DNA from: Tannerella forsythia
GTDB taxonomy: Bacteria; Bacteroidota; Bacteroidia; Bacteroidales; Tannerellaceae
Reading direction: 5' to 3'
NCBI RefSeq assembly: GCF_003860135.1
Contig: NZ_RQYN01000014.1
Span: forward strand, 1-56,288
Length of the DNA stretch: 56,288 nt
Each line of letters opens with the position of its first letter. Within the stretch, counting starts at the first letter, position 1. Below are positions 8,802-43,565 of this stretch, piece by piece. The notes under the pieces were generated by a model. That model was not told the origin of the DNA and made no database searches. It worked only from the letters and a program-made list of their open reading frames with translations. The translations under genes were made by a program, and so were the position numbers.

Positions 8802-9040
8802 TGATTAAGTCTTCCGATGGCCATAATGAAGCCTTCACATCGTTATGGTTAAGCTTGCCGATGCTTATGAGTTATTTAAACCACAGTTGTGTTCCAATTG
8901 GAACACAACTGTGAAACAATTGTCTCACAACTTTGATCCAATTGGAACTCAATTGTGGGACAAGTAACCGAATGTGATCCGTCGGCTTAACTGTACGCAT
9001 CGGAGGGCTAAACTGTGCCGATCGCTTGGGTTACCCCCGG
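8802..9040. repeat. Nested palindrome cluster
   Basis: Gene-free. In the middle is a perfect 32-bp palindrome at 8882-8913 (CACAGTTGTGTTCCAA then its exact complement), followed by a decayed palindrome of about 44 bp (about 8918-8962) that also centres on CCAATTGG. To the left is CCATAATGA/TCGTTATGG (about 8820-8847). Motifs like TTAAGCTTGCCGATGC occur twice to the left in plus orientation and twice to the right in inverted form (for example GCATCGGAGGGCTAAA), so the whole stretch has rough mirror symmetry. No coding frame and no promoter seen. Confidence 0.65.
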
Positions 9041-26849: not shown

Positions 26850-27281
26850 ATGAAAAAGACGAAGCGTAATTTAGCAGCAAGTATGCTGTGTGTGTTATTG
26901 ATCATCGTATGGGGAACCGGTTGTGGTGGTACTCAGAAAGAGCAAGCAGACGGTGAAGAAAAAGCGGCCACGTTTGTGTACGAGATTGAAGACATCTTCC
27001 AGCTCAAAGACAACGGAGTCGTGGTGGTAGGAGAAGTATTGGACGGGAAGTTAAAGGTGGGCGACAAAGTGAATTATTACGATTCGGTCGGCGATAAAAT
27101 CTTCGTTTGTACCGTTTCGGCCATCGAGCAACCGCCTCAGACAGGACTGAAAGAGGCTTCGGCCGAAGGGGAACACACGCATTATGCGTTTATGATTGAA
27201 AATAAAGGAAAAACCGATTTCGAGATAAAAGGATATCTCGTCAAAGGCGATTTACACAAGTGGCTTGCCCAAGAAGAATAA
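26850..27281 (+). CDS. Lipoprotein with EF-Tu domain-2-like beta-barrel
   Basis: A 143-residue protein with a lipoprotein signal (lipid Cys25 in WGTGCGG). The mature part reads FVYEIEDIFQLKDNGVVVVGEVLDGKLKVGDKVNYYDS, closely like domain 2 of EF-Tu-family GTPases (F-V-E-D-x-F-x-I-x-G-R-G-x-V-x-G-x-V-x-x-G-x-L-K-V-G-D-x-V). No GTPase domain is present, so it is not a translation factor; a ligand- or protein-binding barrel on the membrane surface is inferred. It is cotranscribed with a 5'-nucleotidase-like lipoprotein (16-bp gap) under the promoter with tandem palindromes. Function unknown. Confidence 0.8.
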   Translation: MKKTKRNLAASMLCVLLIIVWGTGCGGTQKEQADGEEKAATFVYEIEDIFQLKDNGVVVVGEVLDGKLKVGDKVNYYDSVGDKIFVCTVSAIEQPPQTGLKEASAEGEHTHYAFMIENKGKTDFEIKGYLVKGDLHKWLAQEE

Positions 27282-27297
27282 GGAAACTGCATTTAAA

Positions 27298-28791
27298 ATG
27301 AACAATAGAATGAAAACGATTCAAAGAAAAACGTGGGCAGTCATTACGCTGTCCGTTATCGTACTGCTCTCGTGGACAAGTTGCGGTACGAGCCGCAAAC
27401 AGGCACTTGTGCCGCAGGAGCCGAAAATGTTGCATATTCTGGCGGTAAACGATATGCATGCGGCGATCGACAATTTTCCGCGCTTCGCTTTTATAGTCGA
27501 CAGCCTGCGCGCGTTGTATCCCGACATGCTGCTTTTCTCGGGTGGCGACAATCAGACCGGTAATCCGATCAACGATCAGTATTCGCCCAAAGGATTACCC
27601 ATGATCGAATTGATGAACGCCCTGCGGTTCGATGTTTCGGCCGTCGGTAATCACGAGTTCGACTGCGGTCCCGAAGGCTTCCGGCTCTTGCTCGAAAAGG
27701 CATCGTTCGATTTTCTCTGCGCCAACCTTGCGCCTCCGACCGGGAAAACGTACCGTATCCTTCCGAACAAAACGATCAAGATGCCTAACGGACTGACGGT
27801 CGGCGTGACGTCGGTATTGGCCATCAACACGGGAGGAATTCCCGATACGCATCCCGACAATGCGGTGGGATTCACTTTTTACGATCCTTTTGAAACGGCA
27901 TCCAAACAATTAGCGATGCGCGACCGTTGCGATGTCTTCATTTATCTCAACCATTTGGGATTCGAAGAGGATATGGCGCTGGCCGGTCAGTTGCCGAAAG
28001 ACGCGGCCGATCTGATAATCGGCGGACATTCGCATACGAAGATCGACAACGAACAGTTTCATCACAACATCCTGATTACGCAGGCCGAGAACAAACTCAA
28101 ATATGCGACGCTCATCACGGTCAAGGTAAATCCCGACGGTACGAAAGAACGCCACATGAAACTGCTGCCTGTGGGGAAAAAAGGCAACGAACAAGCGACC
28201 GTTCGTGCGATGGTAGACAAGTACAACGATAATCCGGCCATGAAAGAACTTCTGGCCGAAGCGACGGACGAATTTACGAGCTACGAACAGGTAGGCTACC
28301 TGATGGCCGACGCGCTGCGCGACGGTACGAAAACCGAGATCGCGCTGATTAACCACGGAGGCGTGCGCATTGAGCAACTATCGAAGGGAGGGATTACCGT
28401 GCGTGATGTGTACACCATGGATCCTTTCGGCAACGAATCCGTCCTCTTTAAACTTACCGGACACGAACTGAAAGCGCTCTTTATCGCCGCCTGGCCGCTC
28501 GACGAGGAACTGCCCATCTATCCTTCGGGATTGAAAACACGCTACCTCTTCGCGCCCGACGGTACCGTCAGCAACGTGGAACTGTTTATGCCCGACGGCA
28601 CACCGGCCGATATGGACCGTACCTATACCGTAGCGATGAACAACTATATGGCTTCGGTCTACAAGTACGAGCATCAAGATCCGGGTACAGGGCTTTTCCA
28701 GCCTACGGCCGAGAATATGATCCGGTATTTGAAAGCGTTGAAAACCGTTCCCAGCTATCGGAACGAACAACGCGTAGAGCTGAAGAAGTAA
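27298..28791 (+). CDS. 5'-nucleotidase/2',3'-cyclic phosphodiesterase-like lipoprotein (UshA family)
   Basis: A 497-residue exported enzyme. Lipoprotein signal with Cys29 (LLSWTSCG). The metallophosphatase domain has metal ligands Asp52 and His54 (NDMH), Asp84 (SGGDNQTG), Asn118-His119 (GNHEFDCG), His219 and GGHSHTK (242-248). The 5'-nucleotidase C-terminal domain (about 300-497) includes NHGGVR and YTMDPFGN segments. It hydrolyses extracellular nucleotides or related phosphoesters. The ATG at 27298 avoids overlap with the lipoprotein gene and puts a normal signal sequence first; 27310 is an alternative. The palindromic array begins 10 bp after its stop with no terminator between. Confidence 0.9.
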   Translation: MNNRMKTIQRKTWAVITLSVIVLLSWTSCGTSRKQALVPQEPKMLHILAVNDMHAAIDNFPRFAFIVDSLRALYPDMLLFSGGDNQTGNPINDQYSPKGLPMIELMNALRFDVSAVGNHEFDCGPEGFRLLLEKASFDFLCANLAPPTGKTYRILPNKTIKMPNGLTVGVTSVLAINTGGIPDTHPDNAVGFTFYDPFETASKQLAMRDRCDVFIYLNHLGFEEDMALAGQLPKDAADLIIGGHSHTKIDNEQFHHNILITQAENKLKYATLITVKVNPDGTKERHMKLLPVGKKGNEQATVRAMVDKYNDNPAMKELLAEATDEFTSYEQVGYLMADALRDGTKTEIALINHGGVRIEQLSKGGITVRDVYTMDPFGNESVLFKLTGHELKALFIAAWPLDEELPIYPSGLKTRYLFAPDGTVSNVELFMPDGTPADMDRTYTVAMNNYMASVYKYEHQDPGTGLFQPTAENMIRYLKALKTVPSYRNEQRVELKK

Positions 28792-28800
28792 AACAGCCTG

Positions 28801-29194
28801 TTGACTTATAGTCAAAGCACCGAAAACGGAAAAAAGCGTGTCTTGACTATAAGTCAAAGCACCGAAAACGGAAAAAAGTACCCATTGACTATAAGTCAAA
28901 GCGTCGAAAACGAAAAAAAGCGTCCATTGACTATTAGTCAAAGTGTCGAAAACGAAAAAAAGTGCCCATTGACTATTAGTCAAAGCGTCGAAAATGGAAA
29001 AAAACGTGTCTTGACTATTAGTCAAAGCATCGAAAACGAAAAAAAGCGTCCATTGACTATTAGTCAAAGCATCGAAAACGAAAAAAAGCGTCCATTGACT
29101 ATTAGTCAAAGCGTCGAAAACGAAAAAAAGCACCCATTGACTATTAGTCAAAGTGTCGAAAACGAAAAGAAAGCATCCGTTGACGAATCGTCAA
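28801..29194. repeat. Ten-unit 42-bp palindromic tandem array
   Basis: Units begin at 28801, 28843, 28885, 28927, 28969, 29011, 29053, 29095, 29137 and 29180. Each starts with a 15-bp palindrome and continues with about 27 bp rich in A-tracts (like CGAAAACGAAAAAAAG). The palindrome is TTGACTTATAGTCAA in unit 1, TTGACTATAAGTCAA in units 2-3, TTGACTATTAGTCAA in units 4-9 and TTGACGAATCGTCAA in unit 10. Since 42 is a multiple of three, several frames stay open on both strands (plus frame 28801-29226 repeats LTISQSVENEKKRP), but unit differences are mostly amino-acid changing and the only start would be TTG. I read it as non-coding. It lies between the 5'-nucleotidase and DUF6261 genes. Confidence 0.92.
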
Positions 29195-29244
29195 CGCGAG
29201 AAAAAAGGAACAGATATGAATCATAAACGAGAGGAGATAAAACA

Positions 29245-29991
29245 ATGAATGAAGAAAAAGTAAGAGGTCTCAACATTGCAAGGCTTCAAAATCATGAACA
29301 ATTTGGTTTCATCACCGAATTTAAGATGGAGTTGCAACGGTCGAATATCGGCCCGCTACTGCCGTTTGTTGACCAACTAACGCCGCTTGTGGAAGAAGAA
29401 GATCGGGCGCTGGAGTGGATCAGACGCAGTGAGCATACCCGGCAGCTGGCCGAACTCGATACGGCATGCGACAATTGTTATCGGGGCTTGATAAAAACGG
29501 TTCACGCGGCGCATCACAGCCCCGAAACCGACGAACGCGATGCGGCCGAACTGCTGGAAATCCCGTTGCAGACATACGGCAATTTCACGGTCGAGAGTTA
29601 TGAGATACAGCACAGCAAAACGCGGAATTTGATTCAAGACCTGCGGCTGCCCAAATATAAGCCGGCGGCCGATCTGCTTGGCGTCAGCCGATGGGTAGAA
29701 CGTCTCGAAAAGGCCGACGATGCGTTTATGACGCTCTACCGTATCCGTCGCGACGAGCAGGCTCAGACGGCTCAGGAGCATCGTCCGCTGCGGGTCATCC
29801 GTGGCGAAGTGGAGCGAAAGTATCGTGAAATCGTGCGGCATATCAACGCGTTGGCCGTGCTCCAGCCTCATGCCGAATTGAGCGCGCTGATTGCTCGCAT
29901 CAATGTGCATATCGACCGTCTGAACGCTGCGATGGCTACGCGCTCTACGCGCGCCCGCAAGAAGCAGGAAGACGAAACGAACGAAGGATAA
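29245..29991 (+). CDS. DUF6261 family protein, helical, function unknown
   Basis: A 248-residue, soluble, almost fully helical protein without signal peptide or membrane helix. LNIARLQNHEQFGFITEFK at the N-terminus, EEEDRALEWIRRSEHTRQLAELDTACDNCYRGLI, LEIPLQTYGN, LIQDLRLPKY and YREIVRHINALAVL fit the Bacteroidota family DUF6261 as I know it; the tail is basic (RSTRARKKQ). No catalytic motif is seen. No -7 box lies between the palindromic array and the ATG, so transcription probably enters from the 5'-nucleotidase operon through the array. A structured 3' region and a strong terminator follow. Family assignment is from memory of the pattern. Confidence 0.75.
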   Translation: MNEEKVRGLNIARLQNHEQFGFITEFKMELQRSNIGPLLPFVDQLTPLVEEEDRALEWIRRSEHTRQLAELDTACDNCYRGLIKTVHAAHHSPETDERDAAELLEIPLQTYGNFTVESYEIQHSKTRNLIQDLRLPKYKPAADLLGVSRWVERLEKADDAFMTLYRIRRDEQAQTAQEHRPLRVIRGEVERKYREIVRHINALAVLQPHAELSALIARINVHIDRLNAAMATRSTRARKKQEDETNEG

Positions 29992-29994
29992 ACG

Positions 29995-30098
29995 GGCCGG
30001 AGAGAGAATCCCTGAGGGAATTTTCTGCGCGGCGCGTACTTTCATAGGCGGGGAAGTTCGGAAGAGCCGTTCGGAAAAATAAACCACAGTCTCCGGCC
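29995..30098 (+). other. Possible structured 3'-UTR element after DUF6261
   Basis: Outer arms GGCCGGAGA (29995-30003) and TCTCCGGCC (30090-30098) are perfectly complementary and enclose about 86 nt with an inner AATCCCTGAGGGAATT hairpin (about 30008-30023). It starts 4 bp after the DUF6261 stop and ends just before the terminator. No RNA family recognised. Confidence 0.4.
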
Positions 30099-30109
30099 TA
30101 CCTTTAAAA

Positions 30110-30146
30110 AGCCCCCCTTCCCGGTTCACAACCGAAAAGGGGGGCT
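30110..30146. terminator. Bidirectional terminator between DUF6261 and pgi
   Basis: AGCCCCCCTT / AAGGGGGGCT arms with inner GGTT/AACC pairs, T-runs on both strands. Confidence 0.9.
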
Positions 30147-30165
30147 AACTTTTTTACCCTCTCCT

Positions 30166-31512
30166 TTATTTAAGTTTTTTGCGGATGGCTTTACTTTCTT
30201 TTTCGTAACCGGGCTTGTCGAGCAGAGCGAACATATTCTTTTTATACGCCTCTACGCCGGGTTGGTCGAACGGATTAACTCCCAACATATAGCCGCTGAT
30301 GCCGCATGCTTTCTCGAAGAAATAGAACAATTGACCGATGTAGTAGGCGTTGAGTTCGGGCAAGGTGATTTTGATGTTGGGCACGCCACCGTCTACGTGT
30401 GCCAGCTGGGTACCGAGCTCCGCCATTTTGTTGACCTCATCCACCCGCTTACCGGCCAGAAAATTCAGGCCGTCCAGATCGGTTTTATCGCTCGGAACAG
30501 TCATTTTATGATCGGGCTTGGCAACCGAGATGACGGTTTCAAAGATCGTACGTTCGCCTTCCTGTATCCATTGTCCCATCGAGTGGAGATCGGTCGTCAA
30601 ATCGACCGATGCGGGGAAAATCCCTTTGTGGTCTTTTCCTTCGCTTTCGCCGTAAAGCTGCTTCCACCATTCGCCGATGTAGTGCAGTTTCGGATGAAAG
30701 TTGGCTAAAATCTCGATCTTTTTGCCTTTGTCGTAAAGGGCGTTGCGCGTCGCGGCATACATCGCCGCGATGTTCCGGTCGAACGGTTTTTTTACATCGG
30801 TCGCTTTTTCCATGTCGCCAGCTCCTTGCACAAGGGCGCGGATATCGATACCTGCCACCGCGATCGGGAGCAAGCCCACCGGAGTGAGCACCGAGTAGCG
30901 TCCGCCTACATCGTCGGGGATTACGAACGTCTTGTACCCTTCCTTGTCGGCCAGCGTGCGAAGCGCGCCTCGCGAACGGTCGGTGACGGCCACGATGTAT
31001 TTCCGGGCTTCGTCGACACCGATATTCTTTTCCAGTTGTTTTTTCAGGATGCGGAACGCGATGGCCGGCTCGGTCGTCGTGCCCGACTTGGAGATGTTGA
31101 TAATACCGAACTTTTTGCCTTCCAGCGTAGCGCACAGTTCAAAAAGATAATCTTCGCCGATATTGTTTCCGGCGTAAAGCAGCACCGGATTCTTGCGTTT
31201 CGACGTTTGCAACCAATCGAAGCTGTTGTTCAACGCCTCGACGACTGCTTTCGTGCCGAGATAGCTGCCACCGATACCGATCACAACGACAGCCTTGCAT
31301 TTGCGCAGTTGAGCCGCCGTTTTCTCAATGTCTTTCAGTTCCTCTTCGGTGATGGATGAGGGCAGGTTCAACCAACCGAGAAAATCGCTTCCCGGTCCTG
31401 TACCTTTGTGCAGCATTTCCATGCTTTGGGTCGCTTTCGGGGCCAATGCCTCGATTTGTTTGCGAGTCACCGCACCGAGTGCTTTATCAATGTCTAACGT
31501 TATTGTTTTCAT
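30166..31512 (-). CDS. pgi: Glucose-6-phosphate isomerase
   Basis: A 448-residue enzyme of the short bacterial type. [36 protein letters not shown] (sugar-phosphate site), [14 protein letters not shown] and [15 protein letters not shown] are diagnostic. It interconverts glucose-6-phosphate and fructose-6-phosphate. It lies 37 bp after gpsA and is the last gene of lysS-gpsA-pgi, an order I associate with Bacteroidales. Confidence 0.97.
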
Positions 31513-43293: not shown

Positions 43294-43397
43294 CAATTTA
43301 TTCGGAATATACGTTATCATATTCTGTGTGGATTGTTTATTCTTTCTGATTCATTGTCGATATGGCGAGGGATCGGGTAGCGATCGTTTTTTACCTG

Positions 43398-43565
43398 AAG
43401 GATTGCTTCCTTAAGATGAAGGAACACTTCTTTAAGGTCAAGGAACGCTTCCTTAAGGTCAAGGAACGCTTCCTTAAGGTGAAGGAGCACTTCCTTAAGG
43501 TGAAGGATTGTTTCCTTAAGATGAAGGAACACTTCCTTAAGGTGAAGGAGGCCTTTCTTAGGATA
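43398..43565. repeat. Eight-unit 21-bp palindromic tandem array
   Basis: Units begin at 43398 and every 21 bp to 43545. Each is a 15-bp palindrome AAGGAA-NNN-TTCCTT followed by AAGGTC, AAGGTG or AAGATG. Units 3, 4 and 7 have perfect 6-bp arms; units 1, 2, 5 and 6 have one or two changes and unit 8 is diverged. Both strands are open across it (plus frame 43362-43586 repeats FLKVKEH; minus frame repeats LHLKEVF) because 21 is a multiple of three; neither frame has support as a gene. It lies between the channel and YigZ genes. Confidence 0.9.

Follow-up and report, generated by a model that had tools for sequence, protein, structure and literature searches.

RESULTS

A phased dyad array separates a 5′-nucleotidase-like ORF from a DUF6261 gene

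The window analyzed here is a 56,288-nucleotide stretch of Tannerella forsythia DNA, in which an array of ten 15-bp dyads lies directly upstream of a DUF6261 gene (Table 1). Nine of the dyads are exact copies of TTGACTNNNAGTCAA, starting at positions 28801, 28843, 28885, 28927, 28969, 29011, 29053, 29095, and 29137, and the tenth is a variant; eight start-to-start steps measure 42 bp and the final one 43 bp. With up to two mismatches allowed, the dyad is found 14 times in the window, ten of these being the array itself, compared to a mean of 2.36 and a maximum of 8 after shuffling, and none of 100 shuffles reached 14. TRF describes the array with a period of 42, 9.5 copies, 86% matches, and a score of 535. 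The original prediction of a ten-dyad array at this gene is thus borne out, as is its claim that the array fills the gap between the two genes: the first dyad starts 10 bp past the stop codon of the 5′-nucleotidase-like open reading frame (ORF), and the array ends 50 bp before the DUF6261 gene.

TABLE 1 Features at the array locus
Feature	Positions	Strand	Basis
5′-Nucleotidase/metallophosphoesterase-like ORF; upstream neighbor, outside the system	27265..28791	+	ORF list, profile search
Ten tandem 15-bp dyads spaced at 42 bp (43 at the last step); consensus unit TTGACTATTAGTCAAAGCGTCGAAAACGAAAAAAAGCGTCCA	28801..29194	.	TRF
Tenth dyad, variant TTGACGAATCGTCAA with 2 mismatches	29180..29194	.	Sequence scan
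141-aa open frame across the array; judged not to be a gene	28801..29226	+	ORF list
50-bp stretch from array to DUF6261 start codon; purine-rich GAGGAGA before ATG	29195..29244	+	Sequence reading
DUF6261 protein, 248 aa; one of 15 paralogues in its own genome	29245..29991	+	PF19775, E 4.9e-37

Regular repeats of about 40 bp recall a CRISPR array. However, the segments between the dyads are themselves conserved, A-rich, near-identical repeats rather than unique spacers, which rules out CRISPR, as had been argued from the start; no cas gene was found among the four neighboring ORFs scanned. The palindrome center is variable (ATT, TAT, ATA). A coding repeat was also considered, as 42 is divisible by 3. 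However, sister arrays with periods of 41 and 40 bp cannot keep a reading frame, and the 41-bp period of many sister arrays means that coding does not account for the repeats.

A consensus scan of positions 28500 to 30200 returned one sigma-70-like match, on the minus strand inside the DUF6261 gene (shuffles give 1.4), and one terminator-like match, on the minus strand and coinciding with the last dyad (shuffles give 2.9). Both are within the shuffle level, so the claim that the locus lacks a promoter and a terminator holds only for the consensus scan, with Bacteroidota promoters lying outside the coverage of that scan. The window contains no Rfam family at threshold and no detectable tRNA, and TRF found no second array downstream of its DUF6261 gene.

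Other repeats are present in the window. Positions 43396 to 43549 hold 7.3 copies of a 21-bp unit, half the period of the DUF6261 array, with a dyad like AAGGAACGCTTCCTT; this array sits between two longer ORFs, is crossed by a 136-aa frame with a TTG start, and has no adjoining DUF6261 gene. At positions 8888 to 8957, a 22-bp unit occurs three times, each with the palindrome CCAATTGG.

Arrays of similar period precede DUF6261 genes across genomes

The genome from which the window derives (G000) carries 15 DUF6261 genes. Their upstream DNA, read to a distance of at most 560 bp, contains arrays that are similar in period but differ widely in sequence. When any period from 12 to 99 bp was allowed, the best upstream array has a period of 41, 42, or 83 bp at 13 of the 15 genes. 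In a complete genome of the same genus (G030), the best upstream array measures 39 to 43 or 80 to 86 bp at 46 of 55 genes, and none of the 55 shuffled regions passed the threshold (all shuffles were by single bases). A clear array is missing at 2 of 15 and 9 of 55 genes, respectively, and a second criterion for an upstream array gave 11/15 and 47/55. Where TRF reported an array at a G030 locus, it was upstream in 40 of 42 cases and only downstream in the remaining 2.

The association extends well beyond the genus. Across the order, with one locus per genome and the period again free from 12 to 99 bp, an upstream array of 41, 42, or 83 bp was found in 25 of 28 genomes at a score of at least 17 (21 of 28 at a score of at least 25); these 28 loci are those returned from the 48 genomes with a DUF6261 match. 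Six of seven further loci in this analysis likewise had a period of 41, 42, or 83 bp. We also compared DUF6261 ORFs to other ORFs at 82 loci, of which 77 come from a scan of named genomes and five are additional. The 77 are mostly from Bacteroidales metagenome-assembled genomes (MAGs) and include the complete chromosome of Draconibacterium orientale, where an array precedes the DUF6261 gene, and eight are from Fibrobacterota-type MAGs. The comparison comprises 69 DUF6261 ORFs and 580 other ORFs, each with at least 250 bp of upstream sequence; 25 of the 580 had an array, and 53 of the 580 were dropped as their upstream DNA is common to a DUF6261 gene. An array at a lag of 39 to 44 bp precedes 53 of the 69 DUF6261 ORFs but only 15 of the 527 remaining ORFs, a count that retains several arrays preceding DUF6261 matches truncated at contig ends or interrupted by frameshifts. 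Similarly, inspection by eye places 10 of the 16 arrays of period 41 to 43 that were not classed as upstream before DUF6261 matches disrupted in this way; these were kept, and two arrays across the 82 loci were classed as downstream. In a Prevotella nigrescens record, a 41-bp array lies over the annotated start of the DUF6261 gene. Enrichment in other genomes was the point on which the predicted link between array and gene depended, and it proved to be very strong.

DUF6261 itself is distributed patchily, with matches in 25/31 genomes from the genus, 48/393 from the order, and 3/148 from a sample of the phylum, with the window's own genome counted each time. A genome of another family (G360) contains 22 arrays in 400 kb, counted irrespective of gene location, and all four of its sampled DUF6261 ORFs have an upstream array. 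Conversely, the sampled sequence of five genomes without a DUF6261 match is free of 39- to 43-bp arrays (0 in 239 kb). DUF6261 genes or arrays were seen at the ends of several contigs (G000 C182, G020 C85, and G025 C39, C79, and C80); the arrays therefore probably break assemblies, and counts of the system from draft genomes are probably too low. Palindromes like GGGGCGTATGCAATACGCCCC and CCGGGTACATGT occur downstream of several G030 DUF6261 genes, such as those at L083 and L065, and are perhaps terminators or a further repeat family.

The dyads appear to be conserved as DNA

We examined array anatomy in 142 upstream regions at periods of 40 to 43 bp only, unlike the free period of the enrichment counts, and found arrays in 103 of them, at lags of 42 (68 arrays), 41 (30), 40 (4), and 43 (1) bp. 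In this set the median array has 5.2 copies and ends 73 bp before the start codon. The consensus units are palindromic beyond chance, with a score of 6.46 compared to 4.21 for shuffled units (102 arrays). Variation is lowest in the arms (8.4%), higher in the spacers (13.0%), and highest in the centers (15.7%); in one further unit comparison, low arm variation is partly built in because the arms served to select the units. At a distance of 21 bp from the first dyad is a second, weaker one, with 3.13 pairs versus 2.22 when spacers are shuffled (71 arrays). Since about 42 bp corresponds to four turns of DNA, equivalent sites lie on the same side of the helix.

These properties bear on the simplest alternative, in which the arrays are neutral tandem repeats tolerated by chance in these genomes. 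Tandem repeats do expand and contract, and unit numbers differ between sister genomes. However, a period of about 41 to 42 bp whatever the sequence, the placement beside one gene family, dyads above the level of shuffled units, and the lack of arrays in sampled genomes without DUF6261 make chance tolerance extremely unlikely.

An RNA function was proposed in the original prediction as a tandem-hairpin leader, and repeat RNA acting on DUF6261 in the manner of a type III toxin-antitoxin system is a related possibility. In ToxIN, gene-specific tandem repeats of about 40 nucleotides lie directly upstream of one gene, a layout that the regular array before each DUF6261 gene resembles. Promoter-like boxes also point to transcription at part of the loci. 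The Bacteroidota −7 box is TAnnTTTG, and this motif occurs in the 200 bp before arrays at 1.50 per kb, compared to 0.32 in shuffled sequence and 0.62 on the other strand (28 of 97 sequences), suggesting that some arrays may be transcribed from upstream. The arrays would therefore often lie in a leader, where bound protein could block transcription. At 8 of 90 loci, a promoter-like box is instead found between array and gene, so control of the own gene cannot be identical everywhere.

The substitution pattern nevertheless argues against RNA pairing. A hairpin kept as RNA would favor G-U over A-C mismatches, yet among broken arm pairs on the gene strand of 123 arrays, GT (183) does not exceed AC (210), the GT fraction being 0.47 (interval, 0.42 to 0.52). 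In the same arrays, 48 pairs have changed on both sides while remaining complementary, compared to about 8 expected by chance. The dyads are thus kept as DNA. Three window units folded on the gene strand reach only −4.7 to −6.4 kcal/mol, values matched by 24 to 33 of 200 shuffles. The DUF6261 arrays further differ from ToxIN in having many dispersed members far from any DUF6261 gene, beside genes in all orientations, and the window protein has DUF6261 as its only Pfam match; no Rfam family and a period of about four turns independent of sequence also speak against RNA. The hairpin leader is weakened accordingly, and we regard any RNA reading as very unlikely. Of the three readings first offered, a DNA platform for multiple dimers fits the sequence evidence best.

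Many gene-distant arrays match the families of gene-linked arrays

Arrays are not confined to DUF6261 genes. A sample of 40 stretches of G030 (800 kb, 26.5% of the genome) contains 118 arrays with a period of 39 to 43 bp, of which 11 lie within 1.5 kb of a DUF6261 gene and 107 lie beyond; we refer to the latter as solo arrays. In 20 stretches of G000 (400 kb), 2 of 10 arrays are near a DUF6261 gene. Solo arrays thus outnumber gene-linked arrays by about 10:1 in the G030 sample and 4:1 in the G000 sample, and extrapolation gives roughly 400 arrays in the 3 Mb of G030 beside its 55 paralogues. Where both flanks were in view, 84 of 100 solo G030 arrays are intergenic and 16 are inside a longer ORF, and the flanking genes occur in all orientations. 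Regular chromosomal spacing was considered and rejected, as counts per 20 kb have a mean of 2.95 and a variance of 2.20, close to random. A special target gene beside the solo arrays was likewise rejected; the largest clusters of flanking proteins hold only 8, 5, and 4 rows, some of which are one gene counted beside several arrays. Eight cluster members that we checked comprise two TonB/outer-membrane proteins, two ABC proteins, and four tyrosine recombinases.

The units of many solo arrays match those of gene-linked arrays in the same genome. At a cutoff of 17 of 18 positions, 29 of 107 solo G030 arrays match a G030 gene-linked unit, and no match is made by shuffled units, G000 decoy units, or decoy units from other genomes. 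At 16 of 18 or better, 34 match, compared to 0.3 for shuffled units, 0 for G000 decoys, and 5 for other-genome decoys. At 15 of 18, 55 of 107 match (shuffled, 4.3) and 52 match no gene-linked unit; other-genome decoys match 17 of 107 at this level (shuffled, 3.3), so the looser cutoff is not fully specific. By sequence match, then, about a third to a half of solo arrays are trans members of a gene-linked family. At 15 of 18, one or more solo arrays could be assigned to 26 of the 55 G030 paralogues in the 26.5% of the genome sampled, against 4.3 shuffled matches in all. In G000, two more arrays (C47:44017-44285 and C58:17650-18044) contain the window dyad and have no DUF6261 gene next to them, and four of eight solo arrays bear, by eye, the dyads of the paralogues at C182, C14, and C91.

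The array families follow the proteins. Unit similarity rises with protein identity, from 0.605 where BLAST finds no hit between the two proteins to 0.79 at 60 to 80% identity and 0.92 above 80%. Among seven genomes, arrays of TTGACTNNNAGTCAA occur only in G000 and its sister G025; G027 has one lone exact site, and the four others have none. The window protein parallels this distribution, with 100% identity in G000, 95% in G025, and a next best of 33%. Likewise, the G030 gene at 2233418 has the dyad GATTGTANNNTACAATC, which is found at 15 sites in G030 but is absent from six other genomes. The diversity of arrays among paralogues and the gene-distant arrays had escaped the original prediction because both lie outside the window.

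Solo arrays can persist at their loci, and array and gene move or duplicate together

We compared four solo G000 arrays with the sister genome G025. Three of the four, at C58, C158:10341, and C47:28141, are present at the same loci with 87 to 93% DNA identity, although at C58 the G025 contigs end within the array and the join is inferred; the flanks of the fourth are on different G025 contigs. With three of four arrays common to both genomes, no empty site was found. At C158:10341 and C47:28141, unit number and spacers have changed but the dyad has been retained. The region L116 2690-2975 (G000 C47), which adjoins a solo array and is the source of most of the 70 matches listed in G025, is another dispersed short repeat and not a 42-bp array. 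In G030, three cassettes are 95 to 97% identical from the first array dyad to the stop codon and have unrelated flanks, indicating that array and gene move or duplicate together; no target-site duplication is evident by eye at any of them.

Such duplication as a unit would be expected if only the gene-linked array were functional, as an autoregulatory operator, and solo arrays were leftovers of cassettes that have lost their gene. The enrichment of −7 boxes upstream of arrays (28/97 sequences) and the half of solo arrays without a matched gene also suit this reading. It is difficult to reconcile with the 10:1 (G030) and 4:1 (G000) excess of solo arrays, with the 26 of 55 G030 paralogues that are still present alongside at least one solo array of their family, and with the two orthologous solo arrays that have retained their dyads through changes in unit number and spacers. 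We therefore consider an operator-only role improbable.

Alternatively, the arrays may be selfish or mobilized repeats like REP/BIME elements, with DUF6261 copying or moving its own array family and having no host binding function. An extrapolated total of hundreds of dispersed arrays (118 counted in 26.5% of G030), the three near-identical cassettes in unrelated surroundings, and the patchy distribution (48/393 genomes of the order) are in keeping with mobility. Tyrosine recombinase genes (Phage_integrase, Arm-DNA-bind_5) border 4 of 84 intergenic solo G030 arrays as a raw count (L242, L251, L256, and L269), and coevolution and co-occurrence of protein and repeat are features of REP/RAYT as well (PMC2817692). 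The shared loci in G025, the lack of visible target-site duplications, and the properties of the protein described below oppose it, and we judge mobilization unlikely.

DUF6261 proteins show no consistent transposase match and no recognized DNA-binding relative

The window protein matches PF19775 with 127.7 bits (curated cutoff, 27) over residues 65 to 220, covering profile positions 1 to 154 of 154, and has no other Pfam match. Searches of 63 members against Pfam, NCBIfam, PHROGs, and PADLOC found no consistent relative outside DUF6261, only scattered weak hits, and among these no consistent transposase or nuclease match and no recognized DNA-binding relative. No HUH tyrosine transposase (Y1) domain is among the matches listed for these members (the best 25 of 41 rows for Pfam, plus NCBIfam, PHROGs, and PADLOC), a conserved HUH motif was not found, and H.H occurs anywhere in only 4 of the 63. 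A PDB search revealed no sequence relative (best E, 0.78). Conserved positions include R15, N16, K61, D72, R75, D76, W150, N158, R168, R186, Y193, and N220, and the proteins are mostly acidic, with a median pI of 5.7 (n = 71).

A C-terminal tag resembling PDIxLPEE follows a Pro/Lys/Glu-rich or glycine-rich stretch in 37 of 55 G030 proteins (by eye) and is present in none of the 15 G000 proteins. Some DUF6261 proteins of about 310 to 320 aa (L040, L044, L046, L050, L052, and L058) carry a C-terminal Ig-like stretch, ...VTYKNNV..GTA..IHGKG.Y.G.KTVTFNI, and their N termini show no signal peptide by eye. A possible relation to HagB/HagC of Porphyromonas gingivalis was dropped, having no support in the papers searched (among them PMC5266723). 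A phage origin was also rejected: an unverified 6.3-kb record contains a relative but no 39- to 43-bp array, and a search of viral contigs yielded 46 pattern matches without any relative among them.

DISCUSSION

The nearest known arrangement is that of REP/BIME elements and RAYT proteins (REPINs). As described previously (PMC2817692, PMC3116915), these are dispersed intergenic families of palindromic repeats, each matched to a protein whose gene carries the same repeat, and protein and repeat change together and occur together. The DUF6261 arrays are similar in forming dispersed intergenic families matched to a repeat-carrying gene, with half of the G030 solo arrays unmatched. However, neither a match to a transposase family nor a conserved HUH motif is found in DUF6261; its arrays are head to tail, with a period of about 41 to 42 bp, and mostly upstream, whereas REPs lie inverted on both sides; and up to 55 DUF6261 paralogues occur in one genome. 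Given a protein without the domain that defines RAYTs and a different layout, we do not file the system under REP/RAYT.

Plasmid iterons and single-protein centromere systems such as StbA and pSK1 Par also pair one protein gene with helically phased tandem sites upstream, a likeness shared by DUF6261. In contrast to these, the DUF6261 system is chromosomal, comprises dozens of pairs per genome, has a four-turn period, and includes many arrays distant from the gene. The original prediction called this locus a candidate undescribed system, and the literature that we searched agrees: work on arrays in Bacteroidota, Porphyromonas, and Tannerella and on REP/RAYT yielded no description of a DUF6261/array system. 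Of the papers searched, one mentions DUF6261, and by its title it concerns Streptococcus oralis.

Sequence analysis establishes the association of the arrays with DUF6261 genes, their period, their dyads, their family-specific units, trans membership for about a third to a half of solo arrays, and the lack of such arrays in the DUF6261-free genomes sampled. We propose, with moderate confidence, that DUF6261 and the 41- to 42-bp-phased dyad arrays form a system of many pairs, in which each paralogue binds its own array family both at its gene and in trans. Since the arrays are paralogue specific, phased, and conserved at the level of DNA, binding by DUF6261 itself would be the simplest explanation. 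Each paralogue would be matched to one family of array sequences, of which one array usually lies just upstream of its own gene and the others are scattered, mostly between genes. DUF6261 dimers would bind adjacent dyads along a single face of the helix, with a site every four turns and the weaker second dyad offset by two turns. Binding in its own leader would let the protein control its own expression, with array-bound protein possibly acting as a roadblock. At distant arrays it would act in trans, giving a set of chromosomal sites that carry the same protein and that it may mark or bridge. A bolder and rather doubtful extension is that a single chromosome bears dozens of mutually specific pairs of protein and array, and that each DUF6261 protein coats and joins its own phased arrays, such that orthogonal labels address and fold the chromosome, with the PDIxLPEE-like tag perhaps recruiting a common partner.

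DUF6261, a family without an assigned function, thereby gains a sharp and testable one, as the targets can be read from the DNA before each gene. Should binding be confirmed, dozens of naturally occurring protein-DNA pairs with mutual specificity would become available from these genomes, of use for studying the evolution of specificity and as tools. The DUF6261 arrays would then stand alongside REP/RAYT as a new class of repeat-protein system in bacteria, possibly one that organizes the chromosome.
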